Assembly: GCF_030408815.1 (NCBI RefSeq)
Contig: NZ_CP047355.1
Coordinates: 558,001-622,000, forward strand
Reading direction: 5' to 3'
From: Corynebacterium freiburgense
GTDB lineage: Bacteria; Actinomycetota; Actinomycetes; Mycobacteriales; Mycobacteriaceae
Length of the DNA: 64,000 nucleotides
This document shows positions 28,421 through 42,786 of this stretch, piece after piece; the stretch's first letter is position 1, and every line of letters begins with the position of its first letter. The notes below the pieces were generated by a model. That model had not been told where the DNA came from. It ran no database searches and worked only from the letters and a program-made list of their open reading frames with translations. The position numbers and the translations under genes are program-made.

Positions 28421-29551
28421 CTATGTATGAGCCAATGCTGCGTGTGCTTCGCGGTCGATACGGCCAAAGTTGTAGTAGGCGGCGCAGGCACCTTCGGGTG
28501 AAACCATGCAGGTACCAATAGGTGTTGCTGGTGTGCAAGCGGTGCCGAACACACGACATTGCCATGGTTTAATGCGGCCAGTGAGTACCGATCCGCATTC
28601 ACAGGCTTTCGGGTCGGGGATGCGATTTCCGGGAACTTCAAAAATGCGTTCGGCATCCCATTTGGCGTATTCCGGTGCGATGCCAAGCCCGGAATTATCA
28701 AGCCAACCAAGTCCACGCCACTCAAAGGTTTCGCGGGTTTGGAAGACGCGGGACATAAGGGCTAGGGCACCAGGGTTGCCTTTTGTACGAACAACGCGAG
28801 CGTACTGGTTTCCTACCTCGGCGCGGCCGTCGATAAATTGTTGCAGGAGCATATCAACCGCTTGCAAAATATCCAGGGGTTCGAAACCAGCGATAACTAC
28901 CGGGCGGCCAAATTCGTGGGGGAGAAATTCGAATGTTTGGGTGCCAACAATAGTGGCTACGTGGCCGGGGCCGATAAAACCATGAACTTCCGTTTCGCCG
29001 TTATCTACAAGTGAGCGTAGGGGTGGTTCGATAGTCACATGGTTGGAAAATACAGAGAAGTTTGGGACTTGTTCGCGGCGGGCGGTTTCTAATGTAACTG
29101 CCGTAGATGGAGCCGTAGTTTCAAACCCAACGGCGAAAAACACCACGTGCTTATCCGGGTTTTCCTTCGCAAGTTTGAGCGCATCGAGGGGGGAGTAAAC
29201 AAAACGGACATCGGCACCACGAGCACGCGAGCCAAGCAGGGAATCATGAGAGCCTGGGACGCGCATCATATCGCCAAATGTGGTGAGTATTACATTGTCT
29301 TGTTCGGCTAACCAGAGAGCATCATCCACGCGGCCCATTGGAATGACGCAGACTGGACATCCAGGACCGTGCACAAGATTGATCGATTCGGGGAGTAAAT
29401 TTTCTAGTCCGTAGCGGTAAATCGTGTGGGTGTGGCCTCCGCAGATTTCCATAAGGTTGAGGGGGCGGCCTACCCGTTCCGCGTCGATAGTAATGCGCTT
29501 TAATAGGGCTTTTGCGGCGTCGGGGTCGCGGAACTCATCAACATATTTCAT
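28421..29551 (-). CDS. hypD: Hydrogenase maturation protein HypD
   Basis: Iron-sulfur scaffold that, with HypC, carries the Fe(CN)2CO unit for the [NiFe] site. 376 residues. Diagnostic motifs: MEICGGHTHTIYRYGLENLL, VHGPGCPVCVIP, FFAVGFETTAPSTA, GFIGPGHVATIVG and the C-terminal cysteine set in DPKACECGSVLTGRIKPWQC, then FGTACTPATPIGTCMVS for the 4Fe-4S cluster. It follows hypC by 12 bases on the minus strand. Confidence 0.96.
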   Translation of the reverse strand: MKYVDEFRDPDAAKALLKRITIDAERVGRPLNLMEICGGHTHTIYRYGLENLLPESINLVHGPGCPVCVIPMGRVDDALWLAEQDNVILTTFGDMMRVPGSHDSLLGSRARGADVRFVYSPLDALKLAKENPDKHVVFFAVGFETTAPSTAVTLETARREQVPNFSVFSNHVTIEPPLRSLVDNGETEVHGFIGPGHVATIVGTQTFEFLPHEFGRPVVIAGFEPLDILQAVDMLLQQFIDGRAEVGNQYARVVRTKGNPGALALMSRVFQTRETFEWRGLGWLDNSGLGIAPEYAKWDAERIFEVPGNRIPDPKACECGSVLTGRIKPWQCRVFGTACTPATPIGTCMVSPEGACAAYYNFGRIDREAHAALAHT

Positions 29552-29563
29552 GGGGCTGCGGTC

Positions 29564-29833
29564 CTAACCAATATCAGATGATGTAAACGATTCCAGCTCG
29601 TCTTCGAAGGTATCTCCGCCGAGTTGTTTAATTTGCTGGAGAGTAATTTGCGCTTCGGTCTCGTCGATTTTGCTTAAAGCGAAGCCGACGTGCACAAGCA
29701 CCCAATCGCCTAGAGCAAGGTCTTCGCCGATCAAAAGTTCGGTAGAAATCATTCTGGAAACGCCGCTAATACTGACTTTTGCCCGTGAATCATCCTGAAT
29801 TTCAACCACTTGTGCGGGTACGCCTAAGCACAT
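29564..29833 (-). CDS. hypC: Hydrogenase assembly chaperone HypC
   Basis: An 89-residue chaperone that binds HypD and the hydrogenase large subunit precursor. It begins MCLGVPAQVVEIQ with the essential Cys2, and has GDWVLVHVGFALSKIDE. AAAGGAGG lies a few bases before the ATG. First gene of the leftward hypC-hypD-acetyltransferase unit, divergent from hypE. A second hypC is at 58793. Confidence 0.95.
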   Translation of the reverse strand: MCLGVPAQVVEIQDDSRAKVSISGVSRMISTELLIGEDLALGDWVLVHVGFALSKIDETEAQITLQQIKQLGGDTFEDELESFTSSDIG

Positions 29834-29910
29834 AATGCTCCTCCTTTAACCACACCTCACAGTACCAGCGGGGCTACCATTGAGCTGAACATACTTTGGC
29901 AAGGAGAACC

Positions 29911-30993
29911 ATGGACCCGAAAAACCGGCTTAATGAGGATGAACGTCGCGTCAACCTCAATATTTCGCGCGTACGTTCACGTAAGGCTCGGCTCAATGAA
30001 AGTCACGTGACGCTTGCACATGGTGCAGGGGGCAAGGCTTCAGCCGCTCTTATTGAGGCTGTGTTTTATAGCGCCTACGATAATCCGGTCTTAAACCAAC
30101 AGGGCGATTCCGCAGTAATTCCCCTTGCGGAACTTGTACAAGCTCACGGTAGTTCGCTTGCATTTTCTACAGACTCCTATGTTGTGAGCCCTATTATCTT
30201 CCCAGGCGGCAACATTGGTGAATTGGCAATTAATGGCACGGTCAATGACCTTGCTGTAGCTGGTGCCCAACCAAAACTCATTTCCGTCGGTTTTATCCTT
30301 GAAGAGGGGCTCGCCATTACGGAATTGCGGGAAATTGTGCAATCAATGCGTGAGGCTGCCGAAAAGGCTGGTGTGCACATCGTTGCTGGGGATACCAAAG
30401 TTGTTCCAAAAGGTGCAGGTGACAAGGTGTATATCAATACCTCAGGCATAGGGGTTATCCCGCCTGGGCGCTTTTCGACGCCTATCCAGCCCGGCGACCG
30501 CATTATCGTTTCCGGCCCTATTGCGGATCACGGTATGGCCGTTATGCTTGCTCGCGGAGACTTGGCAATTAGCGCTCCAATTGAATCCGACACCCAATCA
30601 GTACACGGAATGACTGAAGCTCTATTTGCGAATTGCAACCCACGTTGGATGCGTGATGCCACCCGTGGCGGGCTAGCAACAGTAATGAATGAACTTGCGA
30701 AAGTCACTGGGTTCGGCGTGGCACTTGAAGATGTACAAATTCCGGTGCGGGATATGACACGGGCTGCCTGTGACATGCTTGGAATTGACCCACTCTATGT
30801 GGCAAATGAAGGAACCTTTGTGGCGGTAGTGCCGGAGGCGGACGTCGAAAACGCTCTAAGTGTTTTGCCGGAAGGAAAAGTAATAGGAACTGTGGTCGAA
30901 GAACCTGCTGCGGCGGTTGTTTTGAAAACAGGATTTGGTGGCACCCGCATGGTGGACATGTTGGTGGGTGACCCATTGCCACGGATTTGTTAG
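29911..30993 (+). CDS. hypE: Hydrogenase maturation protein HypE
   Basis: Dehydrates the carbamoyl group on its C-terminal Cys to thiocyanate to provide cyanide ligands. 360 residues. HGAGGKASAALIEAVF, FSTDSYVVSPIIFPGGNIGELAINGTVNDLAV-type region and GDTKVVPKG are PurM-like; the protein ends DPLPRIC with the required terminal Cys. The ATG at 29911 is set by AAGGAGAACC. It is divergent from hypC and is the last gene before the lanthipeptide cluster. Confidence 0.95.
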   Translation: MDPKNRLNEDERRVNLNISRVRSRKARLNESHVTLAHGAGGKASAALIEAVFYSAYDNPVLNQQGDSAVIPLAELVQAHGSSLAFSTDSYVVSPIIFPGGNIGELAINGTVNDLAVAGAQPKLISVGFILEEGLAITELREIVQSMREAAEKAGVHIVAGDTKVVPKGAGDKVYINTSGIGVIPPGRFSTPIQPGDRIIVSGPIADHGMAVMLARGDLAISAPIESDTQSVHGMTEALFANCNPRWMRDATRGGLATVMNELAKVTGFGVALEDVQIPVRDMTRAACDMLGIDPLYVANEGTFVAVVPEADVENALSVLPEGKVIGTVVEEPAAAVVLKTGFGGTRMVDMLVGDPLPRIC

Positions 30994-31073
30994 CTGTAAA
31001 GGCATTTGAGGGCTATTTGAATACATTTTGAATTCCTTTGTGTTGTTCTGGTACGGCTTTAATTTCTTTGAAT

Positions 31074-31149
31074 GCGTTTGCTCTTTTCAAACGCGAAATC
31101 TGGATTAAATTTGACCTTGTCGCAAACAAATTACTCAAAGGCGACAAGG
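31074..31149 (+). promoter_or_regulatory. lanA upstream region with two inverted repeats
   Basis: GCGTTTG / CAAACGC at about 31074-31094 and CCTTGTCGC (31115-31123) / GCGACAAGG (31141-31149) are perfect inverted repeats of 7 and 9 bp. They lie 33-110 bases upstream of the lanthipeptide start and could be operators or leader hairpins. GGAAGGAC before the ATG is the ribosome site. Confidence 0.55.
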
Positions 31150-31182: not shown

Positions 31183-31341
31183 ATGGCTGATTATGAATTT
31201 GATTTCGCAGAAGGTGACGCAACAGACGGAATTGATACGCAGTGGAAGTCAAAGTCTCTTTGCACTCCAGGCTGCATTACAGGAATTCTGCAGACCTGCG
31301 CAATTCAATCTTTCACCTGTGAGGTGCATGTTTCGCGCTAA
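31183..31341 (+). CDS. lanA: Class I lanthipeptide precursor, nisin-like
   Basis: A 52-residue precursor. The leader (residues 1-20) is acidic and has YEFDFAEGD in place of the FNLD box. I place the core at about W21. Core residues S25-L26-C27-T28-P29-G30-C31 equal nisin SLCTPGC, the lipid II-binding part, and the end VHVSR resembles nisin IHVSK. By alignment the rings would be S23-C27, T28-C31, T33-C39 and S43-C46. Nisin's last Cys (ring E) is absent because two residues are missing after C46, leaving T45 free. It is followed by a strong hairpin and by lanB and lanC. GGAAGGAC before the ATG. Confidence 0.92.
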   Translation: MADYEFDFAEGDATDGIDTQWKSKSLCTPGCITGILQTCAIQSFTCEVHVSR

Positions 31342-31355
31342 TATAGAAACTCGGC

Positions 31356-31398
31356 AAAAGAGCCCCCTGCCATAGGATTAATGGCAGGGGGCTCTTTT
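31356..31398 (+). terminator. Strong hairpin after lanA
   Basis: Perfect 18-bp stem AAAAGAGCCCCCTGCCAT / ATGGCAGGGGGCTCTTTT with a 7-base loop, 14 bases past the stop. Such hairpins usually let precursor transcript exceed that of the modification genes. Confidence 0.9.
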
Positions 31399-31583: not shown

Positions 31584-32060
31584 ATGGTGCTCACCATTAC
31601 ATTGACAGGCAATCCAAGCGTAAACGGTAAGACAATAAGTAATATAAAGGCGCTAGAATTGGCGTACTTGTTTTCTGAAAATAATGGCAAGATTTCCAAG
31701 AAAACAATCTTGACCAAGCTTTACAATAACTTCTGTTCTAAAAATGCCCTATGGTACCCCGTAAAGGGGTGTACTTTAATGGGGGTTGATATTGAATACA
31801 ATGCTGAAAACCGTGAGTACGTTACTAACTCGGAGATTGCAAGTGACCTCGGCAAGGTTTTAACCAGTTTGGAAGATGGGAATATTGCAAAGGCGCTATT
31901 TTACTTGCGCGGCCCAATCCTTCCCGGTTGCCAAGATTGGTTTGCGGACAATATGCGTACTGTTTTGCAGCAATCACTGGTCGAGTTAGTCGAGGCCATG
32001 GAACCAACTCAGCGAAAAATAATTGTAGAAAACTTAAAAAATCGGGGAGTGCCACTGTGA
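31584..32060 (+). CDS. SARP/BTAD-like pathway regulator
   Basis: 158 residues from the ATG at 31584, with AAGGGA six bases upstream. Residues 1-75 look like an OmpR-type winged helix (LTGNPSVNGKTISNIKALELAYLF, KKTILTKLY), then a short bacterial transcriptional activator domain: ASDLGKVLTSLEDGNIAKAL, FYLRGPILPGCQDWFADNMR. This order is that of actinobacterial SARP activators, but the BTAD is cut short compared with the usual 250-plus residues. Its stop overlaps the LanB start (GTGA), so it is translated with the modification enzymes. Probably activates the cluster. Confidence 0.7.
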   Translation: MVLTITLTGNPSVNGKTISNIKALELAYLFSENNGKISKKTILTKLYNNFCSKNALWYPVKGCTLMGVDIEYNAENREYVTNSEIASDLGKVLTSLEDGNIAKALFYLRGPILPGCQDWFADNMRTVLQQSLVELVEAMEPTQRKIIVENLKNRGVPL

Positions 32061-34840
32061 AAAGTCAACTTGTTTCCAAAGCTACCGGAATTCGGTCAGC
32101 CTCGGTACGTTGGGAAGAATATTTAGAATTCCTACATGCTGAGGGAAACTACGAAAAATTACGGTTGGCATACAGCAACCCGACAATTCGAACTACGTTA
32201 AAAGCATTTCATCCAATTATTGATCGGAATATCCAGGCGATTTTCCAAGGAGAGTTGCTCATTAGCTCGAAAAAGGGGCGCAAAACGTTACGCCACGTGA
32301 TTACATTAATGGCGCGATCCGCAACCCGGGCAACACCTTCACGGTTATTAGGGCGCGTGGGAAATATACATGAGGCATCAAAGCTCTCGGAGGGAATCGG
32401 GCGGAATATTCATATTGTTCTGCACAATGAAATGGAAATTGGTTGCGTGGAACCAATCGTTCCTCATCGGGAAGAATTTGATACGCCCATTGAGGTCCGG
32501 TGGAACCCGTGTGTTATTGATGTGGGGGCTCGGTACTATGTGACGGCTCCAAGACACAGCGAGGACCCATTTGGATCAGTTGGGAAAAATAAACTTTTAA
32601 ATCGAATTGCAGATTTAACCAAGCAAGCGATGCCATGGGGGCAATTAGTCCAAACATTGATGGTGGAGTTTCAAGCTCCTAGCCCGGAACCCGTGGAAAA
32701 AGCACTAACTAGTTTGTTGCACAAGGAGTTTCTGCTCTCTTCATCCAGCTTGGGATATGCGGCACGCTGCAAGAAGCAGTTGGTTTCCACAAAAACTAGT
32801 ACCAGTTGTATCAACGAACTAACCTCTCAATGGGTTATTGAGAATCAAACGTCTGATTTTGAGGTACGACGTGATGCCACTGTGCATATTGACGAATATG
32901 CATTGACCAACTTAGAGCGGTGTTACTCATTATTGATCGAGTATGGGCTGGTGGATACTGCAGATCAAGGTGTCGCACAAAAGTTCGCCGAGCTTATCCA
33001 TGAACGTTATGGGTTTAGCCGGATTTGTCTTACAGACCTTATACATCCGGCGTTTGGATTTTCCTACCAAGGTGTGATCGATGCATTCACCGCAACAAGG
33101 GATACCTCACCTGACGAAAAGAAGGTTGAACTTTGCGGCTGGGCGGCGGCACACAAACAACAATGGATTGACCTGAACCAAAAAGAGATTCGGGATCTTT
33201 TACGAATCCACAACGCTACAACTAAAGGGCGATATTCCACGGAGTTGACGTCGTTTGCGGTGCCAGTAGTACCGCAACTTTCAGGTACGCCCGACAATAA
33301 ACCACTATTAATTGCCTGCGATGGCACTGTTGCTCTTCCTGGACCAACGTTAACCACGCGATATCGGTTGCTTTCCGACGCCCCGCCCTCAGCGGCTCAA
33401 GCTGTGCCCGGTGCCGTAAATGCGGGGATTGATTGGATGGGGCCAAAGGCCAATGTGAATGCGATCCGAGAGTCGTCTCACTCTCTTGATTACAACGTAA
33501 ATGTCAATGGGTTTTCTACAAACAATAAGGAACTTCTTTGTAAAGACCTGTACCTCTGGTCTGATGGCGATCGGATTTATTGTGAAACGCAGGACGGGAC
33601 AAGGCTTCGATTTGAGCCTTCGTGCATGGCTTCCATCCAGTTATATCCAGATTGGGTCCGATTACTTTACCTGGCTACAACCGTGGATTGGCCAATAATG
33701 GCATGGAGCTGGAAAGCATTGGAACAATATCACGATGTACTACCTGGTGTTCGCTATGACAATGTTATTTTGGAACGTCCAAAATACCGTTTTCGCGGTA
33801 ACGAAATTGCCGCTGACTTTAATCAGTGGTGCGATGGTCTTTCGATCTCAGAGTGGGTTCGGCTTGGAAGTCATGACCGAAAAGTACTCGTAAACCGAAG
33901 GCTAATTCAAGATAGCGCAGCATTGATATACTTGCTTCGATCTGGTGGAAATTGGGTAGAAGATGCGTCTGTAGAACAAGGCTCGCCATTGAGCGTAGAT
34001 CATGAGGGGAAGCGGATTCATAGTGAGCTAGTTGTGACATTCCAGTGCCCGCAGAACGCGCAAGAACAAACGTATGCTTCCCGACCAAAGTTTGCTGACG
34101 TGTTCAACTTTGGGTGCGAGCAGATTATCCCGGCAACGAGTACCTGGGTAAATATTGAATTAGTGCCGCGCGGAAATGCGGTCGCACCGCTAATTCCACT
34201 CTTGCAAAAACTGCCCAAACCGTATTACTTCGTACGCTATCGCACACAGAGTGGAAAGCCTTGTCTGCGTTTGCGAATGACTCGTGATGATCTCATGCAG
34301 ATTGAGACCCGAGCTTCTATAGAAACACTTGTGTGGGACGGGTGGGTTGCTGAAGTCAAAGAGCAGCAACACCGACTTGAAATTGAACGTTACGGAGGTG
34401 AAAAAGCATTTGCTGCGTTCACGGAATTGTTTATCGTTGAATCCGCGTTTGTAAGCTCAATTGCGAATCAACAACTTCTTGAACCTCTTAGCCTTGAAGA
34501 ACGCTCGTTTTTTCTTTTTCAATGGCTCAAATTAAGTCCAATAGATATCAAGAAAGCCGTTGTGCAACGCGGTTTTCGTAAGGGAAGTAGTGTCAAAAGG
34601 CAACTGCGAATACCAGACTCATACTCGGAATCTCTAGCGAAGAATGGCGCGGAAATCGACGAATTCTTTGCCGAAGTTCAGCGGCAAATGGAGATAATTT
34701 CGCAGCATGTGGGGGAAAGCCTTGAACCTTGGGCAGTAGCTGCGCATTTGTTCTGTAACCGGCTGGGTATTTCCAGTGATGAGGAAAAACTTGTGTGGAA
34801 AGCAATCGGGCAAAAAACCAGCACATTGGAAAGAGTGTAA
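32057..34840 (+). CDS. lanB: Class I lanthipeptide dehydratase LanB
   Basis: 927 residues, single chain. It glutamylates precursor Ser/Thr with Glu-tRNA and eliminates to dehydroamino acids. The N-terminal glutamylation region includes LMARSATRATPSRLLGRVG and, further on, VRWNPCVIDVGARYYVT. The C-terminal elimination domain has PYYFVRYRTQSGKPCLRLRM near residue 715. GTG start at 32057 overlaps the regulator stop; GGGGAG lies upstream. Length is near that of NisB. In-frame upstream extensions lie inside the regulator and are not used. Confidence 0.92.
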   Translation: MKSQLVSKATGIRSASVRWEEYLEFLHAEGNYEKLRLAYSNPTIRTTLKAFHPIIDRNIQAIFQGELLISSKKGRKTLRHVITLMARSATRATPSRLLGRVGNIHEASKLSEGIGRNIHIVLHNEMEIGCVEPIVPHREEFDTPIEVRWNPCVIDVGARYYVTAPRHSEDPFGSVGKNKLLNRIADLTKQAMPWGQLVQTLMVEFQAPSPEPVEKALTSLLHKEFLLSSSSLGYAARCKKQLVSTKTSTSCINELTSQWVIENQTSDFEVRRDATVHIDEYALTNLERCYSLLIEYGLVDTADQGVAQKFAELIHERYGFSRICLTDLIHPAFGFSYQGVIDAFTATRDTSPDEKKVELCGWAAAHKQQWIDLNQKEIRDLLRIHNATTKGRYSTELTSFAVPVVPQLSGTPDNKPLLIACDGTVALPGPTLTTRYRLLSDAPPSAAQAVPGAVNAGIDWMGPKANVNAIRESSHSLDYNVNVNGFSTNNKELLCKDLYLWSDGDRIYCETQDGTRLRFEPSCMASIQLYPDWVRLLYLATTVDWPIMAWSWKALEQYHDVLPGVRYDNVILERPKYRFRGNEIAADFNQWCDGLSISEWVRLGSHDRKVLVNRRLIQDSAALIYLLRSGGNWVEDASVEQGSPLSVDHEGKRIHSELVVTFQCPQNAQEQTYASRPKFADVFNFGCEQIIPATSTWVNIELVPRGNAVAPLIPLLQKLPKPYYFVRYRTQSGKPCLRLRMTRDDLMQIETRASIETLVWDGWVAEVKEQQHRLEIERYGGEKAFAAFTELFIVESAFVSSIANQQLLEPLSLEERSFFLFQWLKLSPIDIKKAVVQRGFRKGSSVKRQLRIPDSYSESLAKNGAEIDEFFAEVQRQMEIISQHVGESLEPWAVAAHLFCNRLGISSDEEKLVWKAIGQKTSTLERV

Positions 34841-34843
34841 AAG

Positions 34844-36067
34844 ATGATAACGCTTAACACCTCAGATTTACTCTTTGTCAAGCTTGAAAACGATAGTTTC
34901 GGACAAACAAAATCGGCAGATCCCCTGGATATCAATTCAGGATATTTGGGCGCGGCATATCTTGCAGCATCAATGGCACAGATCGACGATTCTCAAGATT
35001 GGCGGCAGGTCACAATGAAGCAGCTAAACCATATCTTTAAACAGCTCGGCGCAAGCAAATATTCACATGGTGGAATGCTCGGTGGGCTTGCTGGATTGGC
35101 ACTATTGCTCCAAACCTCCAAACAGGATCCTGCCGAATATGTGGGTGCATTGCATAAAATCGAAACACGGCTACTGCATCACGTCCGTTGTAGTTTGGAA
35201 AAACTACAAACCAGTATTGGTATGCCTAGGTTCGATTATGATTATGCGATTGGGCTGACTGGAATTCTTTACTATTTTGAGCTTTTCCCACCCGCCGAAA
35301 GAGAACAACAGGAACTTATTACCGGTGCACTGCAATATTTGGTTGGCGTAGCTAAATCGAGTTTTGATGAGTTCTTTTGGACGCCGTCAATTGCTGTTCC
35401 CCACGAGGTAGTGCAACAGGAACCAAAAGCCGCTTTTGGAATTCTTGATTTTGGACAGGCCCATGGAATCAGTGGTGTGTTAGGGCTCTTTCTGGCACAT
35501 GTGCAGCGTACAAAGGACCATAGTGTTCAAGAGGCTATTCCAGGGCTGCTGGCCGCGCTAGTTCGAGGATATGACACTTCAATTGTTCCCGGTATTCCGT
35601 ACTATCTTTGCGGGCATCCAGAAAGCGAATCGTGGCTCAATGATGAACCAGTAGGTTTTGGATCCGGCCCCACTGCACGTAATGGTTGGTGTTACGGTTT
35701 GCCAATTTTAGAAATTTATATGGCGAACTATGGTTTAGCTATTCCCAAACGCCTCGAGTTGAGTTTTACGTCGCCAGAGTACGTCGATCCACGAACTGGC
35801 GGTTTTGATGGGCCAGGATTGTGTCACGGAATTGCAGGGCGTATGGCATTGAACTATCTCATGCGTAAACCAATTCCTGATATTTGGTGGGAGAGAGCAG
35901 AACAACAACTTCAAGCATTGAATGATGTGGAGAATTCCGGACTCGATTTCGGGTTTTGGGATGGAATTGGCGGTCTGCAAATTGTGGTGCAAGCGATTTC
36001 TCAATCCAAGCCGTTGCCAAAACAATTACAAATTCTGGGGCTTCCATATGAACACATTGCGTTGTAA
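34844..36067 (+). CDS. lanC: Lanthionine cyclase LanC
   Basis: 407 residues. Zinc enzyme that adds Cys thiols to dehydro residues to close thioether rings. Zinc ligands are visible at C283 (NGWCYG), C327 and H328 (GLCHGIAG), close in number to those of NisC (C284, C330, H331). AHGISG at 207 holds the catalytic His. The gene starts 3 bases after lanB and overlaps the start of the ABC ATPase by 20 bases. Confidence 0.95.
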   Translation: MITLNTSDLLFVKLENDSFGQTKSADPLDINSGYLGAAYLAASMAQIDDSQDWRQVTMKQLNHIFKQLGASKYSHGGMLGGLAGLALLLQTSKQDPAEYVGALHKIETRLLHHVRCSLEKLQTSIGMPRFDYDYAIGLTGILYYFELFPPAEREQQELITGALQYLVGVAKSSFDEFFWTPSIAVPHEVVQQEPKAAFGILDFGQAHGISGVLGLFLAHVQRTKDHSVQEAIPGLLAALVRGYDTSIVPGIPYYLCGHPESESWLNDEPVGFGSGPTARNGWCYGLPILEIYMANYGLAIPKRLELSFTSPEYVDPRTGGFDGPGLCHGIAGRMALNYLMRKPIPDIWWERAEQQLQALNDVENSGLDFGFWDGIGGLQIVVQAISQSKPLPKQLQILGLPYEHIAL

Positions 36068-36686
36068 AGACGTCAGTTTTTCATACCCTGATAAGCCGGT
36101 CCTATCACATTGGTCTCAATGTTTCCCGCCAGGAAGCTCTACAGCAATCATTGGGCCAAATGGCTCAGGAAAAACGACATTACTGAAACTTTTAGCTGGT
36201 CTAGTAATACCAAATAGCGGTTGTGTGGCTTATGGGGATTGGACTACAGCACATGATTGGCGCCAATTTCGTTCGCGGATTGGAATGAGTTTATATTCTG
36301 AGCGCAGTTTTAACTTTCGGCTTAATGGATACCAGAATGCAGAGTTTATTGGCGCGCTAAATGGATTACATAAAGCCGAAGTGTATGAGCGAATCGAAGA
36401 GTTGTTCTCCAGATTCAATGCTGCAAAATTCTTTGAAACCAGGTTCAGTGACTTGTCCCTCGGGCAGCGCAGCATATACGGACTTCTGGTTGCGGCTTTA
36501 ACATCGCATGGAATTGTCATTTTGGACGAGCCAACAAGCACGTTAGATGTGCACAACAGGAGAATTGTGTGTGCGATGATTAAGGCCCTCACTGCGGGTG
36601 GACACATTGTCATTACATCGACGCATGATTCTGATTTGGCTGATGCTTCTGATTTTGTTATCAACTCTGAGGGGTTTTTGCGATGA
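36048..36686 (+). CDS. Lanthipeptide ABC transporter ATPase
   Basis: 212 residues from the ATG at 36048. Walker A GPNGSGKTT, signature LSLGQRS, Walker B HGIVILDEPTST. A single nucleotide-binding domain with no C39 peptidase or membrane part, so it is of the LanF type rather than LanT. It pairs with the permease whose start overlaps its stop (ATGA). May export the peptide or give immunity; no separate LanT is present. Confidence 0.9.
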   Translation: MNTLRCKDVSFSYPDKPVLSHWSQCFPPGSSTAIIGPNGSGKTTLLKLLAGLVIPNSGCVAYGDWTTAHDWRQFRSRIGMSLYSERSFNFRLNGYQNAEFIGALNGLHKAEVYERIEELFSRFNAAKFFETRFSDLSLGQRSIYGLLVAALTSHGIVILDEPTSTLDVHNRRIVCAMIKALTAGGHIVITSTHDSDLADASDFVINSEGFLR

Positions 36687-37501
36687 TTGTTGACGCCGTG
36701 GCGCTCATCGTGCCTCAAATGAAACGTTTTTGGAGGGAAAAACGCACCTATAAAACACAAATGGTGCTTACGATGTTGTCCTCAATTGTCGGCCTTGTTC
36801 AATTCGGAATTCTCGGCATGTTTATTTCTCAAGGTGGTTCGCTGCCAGGGTTGGATGCTTATGGAGGCAATGTCATTGGTTTTATGGTGACCGGAGCGAT
36901 GGGATCATCAGTGTTATTTATGTTGATGAATGTTCCAAAAGATACGATTCGTGAAGAGCAGCGCACCGGAACTCTAGAAATGATTATTATGTCCAAGCTT
37001 GGACTGCCCACCATTATTGTGACACGGTTATTGGTGAATTTGCTTTCAACGTTAGTGAGCAGCACGGTAGTTATCACGTGCTTCTTTGTGATATTTCATG
37101 TATCGTCCAATGTGAACTGGTTGAATCTATTGCTCACCGTACTAGTCGGGTTCGTGCTTATGTCATCAATCGGCTTATGTGCAGCGGGTTACATCCTCAA
37201 TTCGAAAAGTGGCGAACCATTTACGTGGACGATGACCGTGATTGTGGGATTATTTTCCGGCGTAATGTTTCCGGTGGAATTTTATCCGGAATGGATTCAA
37301 TCTCTAGCATTCTATATTCCAACGACCTCGGTAATGTCGGCGTTGAGACTTTCAACTTTAACCGAGTCAAATTTATTCGAAACCTGTAATGTGCTAATTC
37401 CAGCAATTGTTTGGATATGTATCTTACTGCCACTAAGCCTGTATGTTTTTTGTTGGGGAATGCGAAAAAGCCGGATTAGTGGAACGATCGGTAGTTATTA
37501 G
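36683..37501 (+). CDS. ABC-2 type permease
   Basis: 272 residues, six predicted membrane helices, ABC-2 pattern with the early amphipathic QMKRFWREKRTYKTQMVLTML and EEQRTGTLEMIIMSKLG. Forms a transporter with the preceding ATPase. Translation is coupled to it. Candidate exporter of the modified precursor. Confidence 0.88.
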   Translation: MIVDAVALIVPQMKRFWREKRTYKTQMVLTMLSSIVGLVQFGILGMFISQGGSLPGLDAYGGNVIGFMVTGAMGSSVLFMLMNVPKDTIREEQRTGTLEMIIMSKLGLPTIIVTRLLVNLLSTLVSSTVVITCFFVIFHVSSNVNWLNLLLTVLVGFVLMSSIGLCAAGYILNSKSGEPFTWTMTVIVGLFSGVMFPVEFYPEWIQSLAFYIPTTSVMSALRLSTLTESNLFETCNVLIPAIVWICILLPLSLYVFCWGMRKSRISGTIGSY

Positions 37502-37540: not shown

Positions 37541-37891
37541 ATGAATCGCGCAGTAACGATGTTAGCCCCTGTTATGTTGGTTATTTCATTATTTCTTCTA
37601 GTTGCGAGCTGGTTTGCCATTGTGTTTGGAGTCCTCGCTGTTCTTGCACTACTAGTCTCTGGTGTTTGTATCAAATTCGCAGGGACTGTGCAGGCGAAGA
37701 AGCTTAGTATTGCAGCGCTTTTTATGAGCCTGCTGGCAATTGCTATCGCGGGCATTGGGACATTGCTAATGATGTCAAATGTGCGCACTGAATGTGGGGC
37801 CTTAGATCCCGCATCGGAGGCTGGAATTACCTGCTTTAATCAGCAGTATTCCGCAAGTAAAGGTCTCCACCATTTGTTGTTCGAAAAGTAG
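37541..37891 (+). CDS. Small membrane protein of the lanthipeptide cluster
   Basis: 116 residues with three hydrophobic helices (about 5-25, 28-47, 55-78) and a short extracytoplasmic tail with two cysteines (TECGALD, GITCFNQQY). No family recognised. Its position between the exporter and the protease suggests an accessory role such as immunity or protease docking; this is inference. GGAAAGGAG lies before the ATG. Confidence 0.7.
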   Translation: MNRAVTMLAPVMLVISLFLLVASWFAIVFGVLAVLALLVSGVCIKFAGTVQAKKLSIAALFMSLLAIAIAGIGTLLMMSNVRTECGALDPASEAGITCFNQQYSASKGLHHLLFEK

Positions 37892-37917: not shown

Positions 37918-38685
37918 ATGCTCCGTTATAGCGCGTTTAAAAAAGGGTTGGTTTGTGCATTATTTGGTGTGGTGATGTGTAGCGAGATTGCAGCTGCACA
38001 GGAGAATATGCAAAATCTCATTGGTGTTGGTGAGTTGCCTGAGGGAGTGTATTCAGAGCCATATACATTTGAGTCAACGAATACGCAGGATGCTGCCGAA
38101 TTGGTGCTTTACGGATTCACGGCTTCAACGGGTGATGGTTTTTGTAGTGGTATTTCACTAAATGAACATCAGTTTTTAACTTCACAGCATTGTACTAATG
38201 CCGCCACTTCCCTCGAGGATATGAAAGTGTTTGGACATCCCGATGCAATAGTCCAGGATATTGAGGATCTGCCGGGTGTTGATGCGACGGTAGTCACCCT
38301 TAAGAACCCGGTGTTTAGCCATCATTGCACTGAGTTTTCTGAATCAACCGTGCGGGTGGGCGAAAAGATTGATTTATACACTTTTGATTTTTCTAAGAAC
38401 AAGCCAAATAGTGAACAACTCAACGTTGAACAGGTCGATTATGTAGGTAATAATCCGGAGCTGGGGATTACTTCGCATGATTTGCTTCGTGCATCTGCGT
38501 TGGATGGTACAGCTACACAAGAAGGTGATTCGGGTGCGCCGGTGTTTATGCAGCGAGAAGATGGAGGCAAAGCATTGGCGGGAATTGTTGTCGGAGTTTC
38601 TAAAAAATATGGCGATGTTATTGTGCAGCCGATCGAGCCGTTGATTGATGACGTATTGGAGCGTGGTTCGTACTGTGGTGAATAG
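37918..38685 (+). CDS. Secreted trypsin-like serine protease
   Basis: 255 residues from the ATG at 37918. Signal peptide KKGLVCALFGVVMCSEIAAA, then an S1-family domain with the triad His91 (LTSQHC), Asp122 (GVDATVV) and Ser205 (EGDSGAP). Class I clusters usually have a subtilisin-type LanP; none is present here, so this enzyme is the best candidate for leader removal outside the cell. The precursor has Lys at positions 22 and 24 near the leader-core border, which a trypsin-like enzyme might use. Confidence 0.85.
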   Translation: MLRYSAFKKGLVCALFGVVMCSEIAAAQENMQNLIGVGELPEGVYSEPYTFESTNTQDAAELVLYGFTASTGDGFCSGISLNEHQFLTSQHCTNAATSLEDMKVFGHPDAIVQDIEDLPGVDATVVTLKNPVFSHHCTEFSESTVRVGEKIDLYTFDFSKNKPNSEQLNVEQVDYVGNNPELGITSHDLLRASALDGTATQEGDSGAPVFMQREDGGKALAGIVVGVSKKYGDVIVQPIEPLIDDVLERGSYCGE

Positions 38686-38699
38686 CTACACTGGTAGGT

Positions 38700-39863
38700 G
38701 TGTTTGCGAAGCGGCCAGCCTTAGGCGATTTTCTTCTAGCAACATTGGTGAGCATTGTCGCCATGTTTTATGTCTGGGTTGCTTGGGCAAATACCATTAG
38801 TGCACGGCCAGAGTCACCACAAATAGCGATTGTTGTTTGGGTACATGCCACCATTGCGGTGCTGCTTATCGGCACCGCTTTATTTATGCGCGTATATCCG
38901 TTGGTGTGTGCAGTTCTTACATTGGTTTTGCTGGGGTTTTGGTCGCTAGCATCGATAAGTGTTTTGCCAATTAATACCGGTTATCCGCCTGTACTATTCC
39001 TTGCATTGTGGGCTCTATATTGTGTGTCTCGTTCGGAACAAATTTCGCAATGGCTTATCGTTACCTTGGCCGTTGTGGCGGGTATTGGTTCGGTTTTTTC
39101 GCCAATTATGTGGCGGCTTTCTAATACCGGGGGCTTGGAGTATCGCACTGGCGATGAGATGTTGAGTTGGCTAGGGCTGCATTGGGTGACAATTATCTCG
39201 CTTGTGCTTTTTGCTTGGCGGAGAAAAAGCCTAGAAATTTCTCGCAGGGAAAGCATTATGCGTAGCCGGGAACGTGAGCATTTGCGTATTGCATCAGAGA
39301 TTCATGATGTATTGGCGCATTCGCTCACATTGATTCGGATGCAAGCTGCAGCGGGACTATATAATCCGGATTCAGCGAAAAGCAATTTAGAAACAATCCA
39401 TAAAGTTTCTGGTGATGGCATTGCGGAAGTGCGGATGATTGTGAATGCATTGCGTTCGGGAAATATTGAAGTGCCAGAAACGATGCATTTGCTGGATGTA
39501 GTTGATCGGTTTTTATCTGCTGGTTTACGTATTGAAGCCGATATTGATGCCTCAACGCAGCAGTACTCGCCGATTGTGCAATTGGCATTGCATCGAATAC
39601 TTACTGAAACATTGACAAATGTGCTAAAGCATCAGGGCGTAGATACCCATGTGACCTTGTCAGTACGGGATGTTGAAGAGCATATCGAAGTGCGAGTTTG
39701 TAGCCGTACACCGGCAAAAATCACGCAACGTTTCCCCTCATCAGGAGGCTTTGGATTAGAGGGAATTAAAGAGCGTTGCGTGGCACTAGGGGGAGAGTTT
39801 GAATTTCATTTTGAACAGAATACGGCTAATACGTTTGCTTGGCTGCCAAAGGATCCACAATGA
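38700..39863 (+). CDS. Sensor histidine kinase, NarL-type
   Basis: 387 residues. Six membrane helices in the first 175 residues form a sensor without large loop. The kinase core follows: REHLRIASEIHDVLAHSLT with the phospho-His, LTETLTNVLKHQG (N box) and GGFGLEGIKERCVALGG. HisKA_3 type, as in NarX/DesK relatives and several peptide-antibiotic sensors. GTG start at 38700. Stop overlaps the response regulator start. Confidence 0.9.
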   Translation: MFAKRPALGDFLLATLVSIVAMFYVWVAWANTISARPESPQIAIVVWVHATIAVLLIGTALFMRVYPLVCAVLTLVLLGFWSLASISVLPINTGYPPVLFLALWALYCVSRSEQISQWLIVTLAVVAGIGSVFSPIMWRLSNTGGLEYRTGDEMLSWLGLHWVTIISLVLFAWRRKSLEISRRESIMRSREREHLRIASEIHDVLAHSLTLIRMQAAAGLYNPDSAKSNLETIHKVSGDGIAEVRMIVNALRSGNIEVPETMHLLDVVDRFLSAGLRIEADIDASTQQYSPIVQLALHRILTETLTNVLKHQGVDTHVTLSVRDVEEHIEVRVCSRTPAKITQRFPSSGGFGLEGIKERCVALGGEFEFHFEQNTANTFAWLPKDPQ

Positions 39864-40531
39864 CTATTCGTGTACTCCTCGCTGATGACCAACCACTTCT
39901 AGCTTCTGCTCTGGCCACAATTATTTCCTCGCAATCTGATATGGAGGTAGTGGCTACTTGCTCAGATGGGCAGAGTGCAATCGATACTATTAGGGAGCAA
40001 CCTGTTGATATTGCCATTCTGGATATTCGAATGCCCGGCAAAGATGGTATCCAGGCATTGCAGGAAATCAACCGAATCGCACCAAATATTCGGGTGCTTA
40101 TGCTCACTACGTTTAATGTCCCGGATTTTGTCGAGCGTGCATTGGCTGCGGGGGCGCACGGATTTCTATTAAAAGATGCCGAACCAGAAGTATTATTGCA
40201 AGCGATTCGCTCTGTTTATAAAGGTGAATCGGTATTAAGCTCTGGTGTAACTGCCCATGTTATTAAGGCATGGCGGAAAAATTTACGCAAGGATTCGCAA
40301 CCGCTGGCACCGGAAACTCAACAAGGTTTAAGCTTATTGACGCCCCGCGAAGCAGAGATCCTAGCATTGATTGCGCAGGGTAAAACGAACCCAGAGATTT
40401 CAAGCGAATTGGTAATTTCTGCCACCACGGTAAAAACACATGTTTCACATTTGCTGGCGAAATTGAATTGTCGGGATCGGGTGGCATTGGTTATTGTGGC
40501 CCGGGAAGCTGGCTTGCATACCACTGAGTGA
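39860..40531 (+). CDS. NarL/LuxR-type response regulator
   Basis: 223 residues from the ATG at 39860. Receiver domain with DD at 9-10, phospho-Asp55 (AILDIRMPG), Thr, and Lys in LLKDAEP; C-terminal LuxR helix-turn-helix LTPREAEILALIAQGKTNPEI. Coupled by ATGA to its kinase. Likely responds to lanthipeptide or cell-envelope stress and controls the ABC genes that follow. Confidence 0.92.
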   Translation: MTIRVLLADDQPLLASALATIISSQSDMEVVATCSDGQSAIDTIREQPVDIAILDIRMPGKDGIQALQEINRIAPNIRVLMLTTFNVPDFVERALAAGAHGFLLKDAEPEVLLQAIRSVYKGESVLSSGVTAHVIKAWRKNLRKDSQPLAPETQQGLSLLTPREAEILALIAQGKTNPEISSELVISATTVKTHVSHLLAKLNCRDRVALVIVAREAGLHTTE

Positions 40532-40552: not shown

Positions 40553-40609
40553 TGCAAGTTCGTGCCGTGGTTGGATTACTTTTTTGCTGAGCTTCGCCAC
40601 AATATAAGT

Positions 40610-41320
40610 ATGAAAACAGCAATTGAACTCCAGCAGATATCCGTTGAACTTGGCGGATCTAGGATCCTTAATAATTTGTCCCTAAGGGTTTTTTCGGGGA
40701 GGGTACACGCTTTATTAGGGCGGAATGGTGCGGGTAAATCCACTGCGTTTAAAGCCTTGTTGGGTTTGGTGCCTGTGCAAACCGGTGCGGTAAGTGTGTT
40801 CGGTAGGCCCGTGACGTCGGAAAGCTTGAAATATATTGGGTCTTCTATTAACGGCCCAGCCCTCTATGATCATCTTTCGGCGCGGGATAATGTGAAAATT
40901 CATGCACTGTTATTGGGGTTGCCCAAAACAGAAATCGATCGCGTGCTTACGCTTGTCGGGCTGGCGCAAGCCGGGAAAAAGAAAGCGAAGTCGTTTTCTA
41001 CTGGAATGCGGGCACGGCTGGCACTGGCAATCGCAATGTTAGGCTCGCCGCCCATTTTGATTTTGGATGAACCACAAAATGGCCTTGATCCACAAGGAAT
41101 TACGGATCTTCGGCAATTCCTACAACAGTGGGCGCGCGCTGGTGGCACCGTGTTGGTTAGCTCTCACCAGCTTGGGGAAGTGTCGCGCCTTGCTGACGAT
41201 ATCACCGTAATTGATAGTGGGACCACGGTGTTTTCCGGAACCGCGGAACAATTCCTGCAGGGAGAGGATCTGGAATCCCGCTTTTTGAGTATTACTGGTC
41301 AGAATGAGGGATTACAATGA
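40610..41320 (+). CDS. ABC transporter ATPase, BcrA/lanthipeptide immunity type
   Basis: 236 residues from the ATG at 40610. Walker A GRNGAGKST, signature SFSTGMRARLALA, Walker B ILILDEPQNGLDPQG, and the Gln-Asn variant of the D-loop region. The phrase EPQNGLDPQG is common in bacitracin and lantibiotic self-protection ATPases. It pairs with the large permease coupled by ATGA, downstream of the two-component genes. Confidence 0.9.
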   Translation: MKTAIELQQISVELGGSRILNNLSLRVFSGRVHALLGRNGAGKSTAFKALLGLVPVQTGAVSVFGRPVTSESLKYIGSSINGPALYDHLSARDNVKIHALLLGLPKTEIDRVLTLVGLAQAGKKKAKSFSTGMRARLALAIAMLGSPPILILDEPQNGLDPQGITDLRQFLQQWARAGGTVLVSSHQLGEVSRLADDITVIDSGTTVFSGTAEQFLQGEDLESRFLSITGQNEGLQ

Positions 41321-42786
41321 ACGCAACAGCATCACTTCTGCAGTATGTTCGAGTGGAGGGGATACGGTTACAGTCCTCCCCGGTACTGTACTTTTCGCTC
41401 ATCGGACTTATATTCGGAGCGTTAAGTTTGGTGCTATCGGTTGGTGCGCAAAATGCGGGCTTTCAGTCGGCGGCATTTTCCTGGCAAGTCATGTATTTCA
41501 CTGGCATGGCGGCTCCTCTAATGATGGTGTTGGCGGGACTTTCTGAACAGCGTGAGCTAGCTGCTCGCAATGGTGGAATTACCTGGAGGGGTGCTTCCGC
41601 CTATAAGGATCGCCTGGCCAGGCTCCTCGGAATTACATTCGTTTCCGCATTAGTTCAATTATTGAGTTTTGGCAGCGTGATTTTATTTGGTGCGCCCTTT
41701 ACCAATGGGGTTATCGCAGCGACTTATGCATGGATCGGTTCCTTGGGTTTATTGGGAATCGGCGCGATTGTAGCCCGCAGGCTAGGCACTATAGCAGCCC
41801 TTATCACAGGAATAGTATGGCAGTTAGTTGGTACTGCTTTTGCGGAATCTACCTGGTGGTGGCTGATTCCACCGACTTGGCCCATTCGTATTCTCTTAGT
41901 TCCAATTGGCGTTCAAGTCAATGGTGTTCCAATGGAAGCTGGCCATCCCGCACTGGATGAACCAGCATGGTTTGGGGTGGTGCTTTGCATTGTCTTTGGC
42001 GTTGCGACGTTCGCGGTTGCTACGCGAGTCGGGGAGCGCCAACCATCTAGAAAACCTAAGGTTGTTCAGGGTCCGAAAGTTGAAGTAACAAAGCCATTTG
42101 AGATGAATTCGGTAGCTGCGATTACCCCAACTGGGCAACGTAGCGCAAGGACATTTCCTCTTGAAGCATTTATGCTTGCTTTAAAAGGCAGCGGCGTGGG
42201 GATTTGTATGGTTCTTTCCGCAGTGGTCATTATTATCGCTGCTGGAACGTACACGATCGAAATAGTGAGCGGATTTTTTAGCTTTATTATTGTTCCGCTT
42301 GGGGCAGGAATTTTGCCGGTACTTGTATGGCGGGTACTTCAGGATACCTATACGCTAATGCATATTGAAAACCCGAAAATTACGCCCGGGATTGCAATTA
42401 TGCAAACGCTTGTTCTGGGTGTTTTGGTGGCAATTGTTAGTGTGTGTTTATTGGGTGGTGGATATCCCGTAATTGCACTTGCGGGAAAGATTTTATTGTG
42501 GATGCTGGTGGGAACTACCTTATTGTGTTTAGCCTTAGCATTAACTGTAAGGTTTGGTCCCGGGGCGTCGATAGCCGCAATGGTTTTCTGGACCATTATT
42601 GCGATTACCCTAGGCGGAGACGTACTGGCAGAAACATTCTTGTGGATCATTGCGTTTCCAGTATGGCCGGAATTGGCGAGCACATTGGCGAGGTTCTTGA
42701 TCGCACTGCCATTGGCTGTGCTCACCACGCTTGGTAGCTGGTATCTACTTATGCGAACTTTGAGGGCGCATCGTCGCACTTCATAG
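41317..42786 (+). CDS. ABC permease, lanthipeptide immunity type
   Basis: 489 residues with about 12 membrane helices, that is, two fused six-helix halves separated by a soluble stretch near residues 245-285. Large single-chain permeases of this kind replace the two small subunits (LanE and LanG) in some lanthipeptide immunity transporters. Coupled to the ATPase. Last gene of the cluster. Confidence 0.82.
   Translation: MNATASLLQYVRVEGIRLQSSPVLYFSLIGLIFGALSLVLSVGAQNAGFQSAAFSWQVMYFTGMAAPLMMVLAGLSEQRELAARNGGITWRGASAYKDRLARLLGITFVSALVQLLSFGSVILFGAPFTNGVIAATYAWIGSLGLLGIGAIVARRLGTIAALITGIVWQLVGTAFAESTWWWLIPPTWPIRILLVPIGVQVNGVPMEAGHPALDEPAWFGVVLCIVFGVATFAVATRVGERQPSRKPKVVQGPKVEVTKPFEMNSVAAITPTGQRSARTFPLEAFMLALKGSGVGICMVLSAVVIIIAAGTYTIEIVSGFFSFIIVPLGAGILPVLVWRVLQDTYTLMHIENPKITPGIAIMQTLVLGVLVAIVSVCLLGGGYPVIALAGKILLWMLVGTTLLCLALALTVRFGPGASIAAMVFWTIIAITLGGDVLAETFLWIIAFPVWPELASTLARFLIALPLAVLTTLGSWYLLMRTLRAHRRTS

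Follow-up and report, generated by a model that had tools for sequence, protein, structure and literature searches.

A nisin-family lanthipeptide cluster in Corynebacterium freiburgense with a precursor that lacks the ring E cysteine

The window, a stretch of 64,000 nucleotides from the 2.96-Mb genome of Corynebacterium freiburgense, contains a gene cluster for a class I lanthipeptide that is headed by a short precursor gene, lanA (Table 1). Upstream of lanA is hypE, and we take the genes at 28421-30993 to be hypD, hypC and hypE of hydrogenase maturation. The encoded prepeptide consists of a leader, MADYEFDFAEGDATDGIDTQ (residues 1-20, ending in TQ), and a core, WKSKSLCTPGCITGILQTCAIQSFTCEVHVSR (residues 21-52). 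Its score passes the curated cut-offs of both the NCBIfam gallidermin/nisin model (TIGR03731; 46.6 bits versus 29.3, E = 2.5e−12) and the Pfam Gallidermin model (PF02052; 25.8 versus 21), and the product is therefore a member of the gallidermin/nisin family. An earlier note, made from the letters of this DNA, had placed a nisin-family precursor of a Corynebacterium at exactly these coordinates, and both the reading frame and the family assignment are borne out. Searched against some 5.8 billion proteins, LanA retrieved 11 at E values of up to 1, itself included, and the best other match was a Corynebacterium sp. precursor (73% identity). The earlier note had proposed conservation in relatives carrying lanB and lanC as a check on the frame; two genomes of the genus, each with the whole cluster, keep it (loci L008, 73%, and L009, 63%). 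Between these two loci lanA is under purifying selection (dN 0.16, dS 1.07), while dS is saturated for the window versus L009 (2.6) and not computable for the window versus L008. The family scores and the conservation together rule out a chance open reading frame at 31183..31341.

Table 1. Positions of the lanthipeptide cluster features in the window
Feature	Position	Strand	Remarks
Upstream block	31058..31124	+	Common to two same-genus genomes; likely activator site and promoter
lanA	31183..31341	+	Precursor, 52 aa, ATG to TAA
Intrinsic-terminator-like hairpin	31356..31398	+	Separates lanA from the other cluster genes
orf158	31584..32060	+	158 aa; predicted fold of the SARP DNA-binding half (winged helix and part of BTAD)
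lanB	32057..34840	+	Class I lanthipeptide dehydratase, 927 aa from GTG start
lanC	34844..36067	+	Cyclase; zinc ligands present (WCYG, LCHG)
ABC ATPase 1	36048..36686	+	Likely exporter half
ABC-2 permease 1	36683..37501	+	Likely exporter half
Small hydrophobic protein	37541..37891	+	116 aa; candidate immunity protein
S1 serine protease	37918..38685	+	Trypsin fold; likely leader peptidase
Histidine kinase	38700..39863	+	Kept in L008 and L009
Response regulator	39860..40531	+	NarL/LuxR type; kept in L008 and L009
ABC ATPase 2	40607..41320	+	Likely self-immunity
489-aa protein	41317..42786	+	Likely permease of ABC system 2

Among 242 genomes of the genus, six have a lanA match and five the cluster (G000, G025, G094, G190 and G196). 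The sixth match (G179, E = 0.005) was rejected because no further protein of the cluster is encoded in its 19.5-kb region. The gene order of the window, beside hypE, recurs in L008 (G196) and L009 (G025), with identities to the window proteins of about 50-53% for LanB and about 80% for the first ABC pair. Every cluster gene of the window is an open frame with a match in both loci. The cluster in L010 (G190) is cut by a contig end inside lanB, and that of C. lipophiloflavum (L011, G094) is a rearranged version. Because hypE adjoins the cluster in L010 as well as in L008, L009 and the window, the cluster appears to occupy a fixed chromosomal site. Two of the sister clusters contain additional precursors: four at 13300-14507 of L010, with leaders of the same type, of which only the last is nisin-like, and a second one at 3265-3402 of L009 with a core that is not nisin-like. 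These extra precursors combine YDFDFADG/YEFDFAEGD-type leaders with unrelated cores, and one leader and one set of machinery possibly serve several products there.

Both lanB and lanC lie in the cluster downstream of the precursor gene. LanB carries the N and C domains of the lantibiotic dehydratases (PF04738 and PF14028), and its residues R91, R435, R727, R738, E777, R778, H897, N901 and R902 are invariant in all 13 proteins aligned (the window and 12 of the 23 others found; 8 of the 31 loci checked gave no LanB match, and the C. lipophiloflavum LanB, which contains a run of N, was left out). Among them, R91, R435, R738, E777, R778 and H897 are the residues of glutamylation and elimination. 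The one PDB relative of LanB at E values of up to 0.001 is 9g04, a LanB-type protein of bacteriocin biosynthesis. Because the AF2 model of LanB is of low confidence (pLDDT 62.8, pTM 0.37), the putative leader-binding segment was assigned from the alignment and a local strand-helix pattern. According to an earlier report, the C. lipophiloflavum LanB is without the RxTPFG motif and the GxG glycines (PMC3091789); the window LanB has RATPSR. LanC matches NisC (2g02, E = 6.7e−15) and retains the three zinc ligands. Both enzymes are only about 20-26% identical to those found outside the genus, and their handling of substrate could therefore differ. The 116-aa protein, which has no match above a curated cut-off, ends in a two-cysteine tail conserved in the four clusters aligned. 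The 489-aa protein has no Pfam match, and a 38% identical relative in another locus (L067) matches ABC2_membrane_4 below the cut-off. With this gene content, modification, export, cleavage and regulation all have encoded candidates.

The protease has the PF00089 trypsin fold and a start that looks, by eye, like a signal peptide. Its S1 triad (H91, D122 and S205) is invariant in the three sequences aligned, and the same motifs occur in the L008 reading frame. In the numbering that we assume, it has no equivalent of the trypsin Asp189, and residue 190 is Thr in all four proteins compared; this pattern would suit an enzyme that spares Lys and Arg sites. This specificity matters because the core contains Lys2 and Lys4. 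Gln is the last leader residue in all five Corynebacterium precursors aligned. No sequence relative was found in the PDB at E values of up to 0.01, and no S8 protease (subtilisin-like LanP) is among the matches listed for the 10 cluster proteins or the second ABC system, the proteins that this check covered; for one ATPase and the response regulator, the NCBIfam matches considered were the first 25. Subtilisin-like LanP is the well-studied leader peptidase of class I (PMC8960859), and some nisin clusters are without it (PMC11811420). We suggest that the S1-type protease is likely to replace LanP as the leader peptidase and to cut after Gln20.

The product of orf158 has no Pfam match. Its predicted fold resembles AfsR and EmbR over residues 1-150, with a truncated BTAD, and this match spans nearly the whole model, whereas matches to the winged helix only cover 60-odd residues. 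Compared with AfsR and EmbR, it is far shorter and 14-17% identical, and by Z alone EmbR is tied with BirA, a winged-helix-only match (8.9, 63 aligned). From the model, we regard the orf158 product as a small SARP-like protein and a candidate regulator. The gene, whose stop overlaps the lanB GTG start (GTGA), is present in all five Corynebacterium clusters and in none of 26 loci fetched from outside the genus; this absence is local, because none of those loci is longer than about 20 kb and some are shorter still (5.3 kb in one case). An orf158-like protein followed by a LanC-like protein was also observed in three other Corynebacterium genomes (L064 10077-11753, L065 5909-7660 and L066 5398-7095). 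There, the LanC-like proteins have lost two or three zinc ligands (WSTG/WSRG/WATG; VCNG/LRNG/VCNG), a two-component system adjoins, and no LanB match lies in the fetched regions. A scan for small Cys-containing frames with a ribosome-site-like stretch found no convincing precursor beside these genes, which possibly encode a non-enzymatic LanC with a SARP-like partner.

Three TTTGA/TTTGC-like words, 9-10 bp apart, begin at 31058, 31067 and 31077 upstream of lanA and are followed by TTTGACCTTGTCGCA at 31110. A template of these words was matched as well by 0 of 200 shuffles for both the window and L008, a post hoc value because the template had been read off these two sequences. In L009, 24 of 200 shuffles were as good for lanA and 3 of 200 for the second precursor, and the L010 precursors gave 7, 22, 59 and 198 of 200. 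For C. lipophiloflavum the triple words were not found (167 of 200 shuffles as good). A sigma-70 consensus scan gave no promoter-like site in the upstream block. The hairpin 3′ of the lanA stop has an 18-pair stem (z = −7.2, 0 of 200 shuffles). Together with the S1-type protease and the sister clusters, orf158 is among the less ordinary parts of this system, none of which the earlier note mentions.

The core has the four cysteines that had been claimed (positions 7, 11, 19 and 26), SLCTPGC stands at prepeptide residues 25-31 as described, and the lipid II motif (S3 to C7 and TPGC) is also intact in the core sequence. Cys28 is missing (TCEVHVSR), and with it the Cys26-x-Cys28 pattern behind the interlocked rings D and E of the five-ring nisin/subtilin group; ring E should therefore be absent. 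The earlier note described a deletion of Cys28 together with one neighbor. A two-residue gap does appear against nisin, but only there: the alignment with CMB001, a subtilin-type peptide from Paenibacillus (PDB 7k1q), is gapless, so that Cys28 is replaced by Val instead of deleted. CMB001 ranked at the top of the PDB sequence search (45.6 bits), above 9g05, a precursor chain of the gallidermin/nisin family (28.1), and nisin (19.7; 1wco). It shares the Trp1-Lys2-Ser3 start, the length of 32 residues and 20 of 32 residues with the window core, differs in having Cys28, and is 81% identical to subtilin (PMC7721686). Judged by sequence, the window core is of the subtilin type, with Val in the place of Cys28. 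By alignment with subtilin-type peptides, we predict rings S3-C7 (A), T8-C11 (B), T13-C19 (C) and S23-C26 (D) and cleavage after Gln20, although other pairings of the C-terminal rings, or a free C26, are conceivable. The leader had been called non-FNLD; we instead read its YEFD as a variant of the FNLD box, given the FTLDFAEGD of the C. lipophiloflavum leader.

The ring E cysteine is absent from all five aligned Corynebacterium precursors (the window, L008, L009, L010 and C. lipophiloflavum). Its absence is thus a shared feature of these Corynebacterium precursors and not a peculiarity of one peptide, and inheritance seems to explain it better than a recent lesion does. Four of these precursors keep the lipid II motif intact; in the nisin-like one of L010 the motif is changed (YCTAGC), and a fifth Cys stands at core position 1. 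Of 28 precursors extracted from the 29 loci of a GTDB-wide scan (L026 was missed by the extraction motif), a C-terminal Cys-x-Cys is seen in 11, another 13 are of a different kind with six or seven Cys, and four, from three Corynebacterium loci and Romboutsia, have neither.

Across GTDB, scanned with one genome per species, 29 loci were found: by record title, 3 in Corynebacterium, 3 in Nocardia and 23 under Firmicutes names (some strains occur twice, and the scan may omit the window itself and records very close to it). The statement that nisin relatives come almost only from Firmicutes is thus fair, but the Corynebacterium and Nocardia loci make it less than exclusive. An order-wide search of 397 genomes drawn from a larger group gave six matches, namely the window itself and five weak ones (E = 0.001-0.009) from two other families. 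The leader pattern, which the C. lipophiloflavum leader does not fit, occurs in 9 of the 242 genus genomes, four of which are known cluster carriers (G000, G025, G190 and G196). Regions from four of the other five (L068-L071; G151 was not included) contained no cluster protein at E values of up to 0.01 and were rejected as further clusters. We also observed, at 3454-7934 of L067, a histidine kinase, a response regulator, an ABC ATPase 61% identical to the second ATPase of the window, a membrane protein and only a fragment of orf158; there are no lanABC matches in L067, which is possibly a resistance-only remnant. The first 22 core residues (31243-31308) are identical, 22 of 22, to those of a precursor from a Roseburia MAG (L015, 9986), whose core has Cys28 and whose locus encodes a LanB 23% identical to that of the window. 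A recent acquisition of the core from Roseburia as DNA was considered and dropped; the codons (11 of 22 identical) were not informative. A 2025 survey in mBio likewise reports stronger conservation of cores than of modification enzymes (PMC12506125).

The claim of a peptide without precedent finds no support. C. lipophiloflavum DSM 44291 is the source of flavucin, a nisin variant (PMC12506125, PMC6353901), and the only precursor found in that strain, with four Cys and a DFAEGD leader, is by our inference from the strain that of flavucin, as is the cluster. The flavucin strain is of the same genus and resembles the window in its leader (FTLDFAEGD versus YEFDFAEGD), its four-Cys core with the lipid II motif, and a cluster of orf158, LanB, LanC, an ABC pair, a small membrane protein and an S1-type protease. 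It differs in LanA (49% identity, with little of the core shared beyond ring B), LanB (two tblastn segments of 30-33%), gene order, and the absence of the triple repeat upstream. Rombocin A of Romboutsia sedimentorum is a natural nisin variant that has no ring E and kills cells; it binds lipid II and depolarizes membranes without potassium release, and propidium iodide enters the cells (PMC10804407). A precursor from strain RC002 of that species was recovered (L035). The rombocin A core is shorter, with a CTAGC motif and no hinge, whereas the window core keeps CTPGC, the hinge AIQ and a longer tail. With nisin A, the window core shares SLCTPGC, the Cys spacing up to C26 and HVS in the tail; it differs in the missing Cys28, two fewer residues, the Trp start and the Gln before the core, and no subtilisin-like LanP or LanI was recognized in the window cluster. 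According to the mBio 2025 survey, C. freiburgense DSM 45254 carries a nisin-like cluster and one Corynebacterium sp. an orphan core gene (PMC12506125), and this exact peptide may be among those of the survey. A Corynebacterium nisin variant and a variant without ring E are thus already known, and because of flavucin and rombocin the window peptide is less novel than claimed. What stands of the earlier interpretation is the nisin family, the lipid II motif, the four Cys and lanBC.

We propose, with considerable confidence, that LanB and LanC turn the 52-aa LanA into a four-ring, lipid II-binding lantibiotic without ring E. The RRE-like segment of LanB would bind the YEFDF of the leader, and LanB would dehydrate up to eight Ser and Thr residues of the core (S3, S5, T8, T13, T18, S23, T25 and S31), giving at full modification (minus 8 H2O) a computed core mass of 3353.96 (average) or 3351.63 (monoisotopic). 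LanC would close rings A to D; ring E, which interlocks with ring D, could not form because Cys28 is missing, and T25 would be left as Dhb. The first ABC pair (36048-37501) would export the peptide, and the S1-type protease would likely remove the leader. Because rombocin binds lipid II and depolarizes without ring E, we predict the same mode of action here: rings A and B would bind the lipid II pyrophosphate and membranes would be depolarized, and stable nisin-type pores are not expected. Expression of lanA would likely be turned on by the two-component system and orf158, and self-protection would likely come from the second ABC system.

The same cluster might be read in other ways. The modified peptide could be only weakly antibacterial and serve mainly to signal to the neighboring two-component system or to induce its own production through it. 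Conservation of the kinase and regulator in L008 and L009 agrees with such a role, as does a genome with two-component and ABC genes and no lanABC match (G217), in which sensing is thus separable from production. We nevertheless regard a mainly signaling peptide as very unlikely: the lipid II motif is intact in four Corynebacterium precursors, the cluster has a second ABC system that would suit self-protection, and nisin itself both signals and kills. It is also conceivable that the cluster is decaying, with the loss of Cys28 as the first lesion and a peptide no longer made or active. The altered YCTAGC motif of L010 and the three genomes with regulators, orf158 and a LanC-like protein minus zinc ligands, but no LanB match in the fetched regions, would suit decay. 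We judge it highly improbable, given the open frames of the window cluster and their matches in both L008 and L009, the purifying selection on lanA between those loci, and the non-Cys residue at position 28 in all five Corynebacterium precursors.

The role of orf158 invites two further proposals. Instead of a transcription factor, its product could be an accessory of the modification complex that has retained a SARP-like fold, for example an adaptor to the leader or to LanC. The overlap with lanB, the missing Pfam regulator match and the place of orf158 beside LanC-like genes, including those with lost zinc ligands and no LanB match in the region, all point this way, but the AfsR/EmbR match over nearly the whole model, the direct repeats upstream of lanA and the RRE-like segment that LanB itself seems to keep point to the SARP-like regulator; we view an adaptor as possible but doubtful. 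More speculatively, Corynebacterium may have a lantibiotic system of its own in which orf158, as a stand-alone miniature SARP protein, reads the state of the LanC cyclase and couples lanA transcription to the presence of the modification machinery; one leader would drive fast-changing cores, and the orf158-LanC pair would survive in other species as a sensor with a broken zinc site. We consider this coupling unlikely as it stands, yet an orf158-LanC association kept even with lost LanC zinc ligands would make the idea of a cyclase as sensor testable.

Returning to the proposed four-ring lantibiotic, the Corynebacterium clusters mark, besides Romboutsia, a lineage in which absence of the ring E Cys would be an inherited trait. 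If made, the window peptide would be a natural test of ring E function, and comparison with the Roseburia precursor would isolate the C-terminal rings, because the 22 N-terminal core residues are equal and Roseburia keeps Cys28. According to the mBio 2025 survey, no production of a natural nisin variant has been observed in Actinomycetota (PMC12506125), and we suggest that the clusters of the window, L008 and L009 are candidates for such production.
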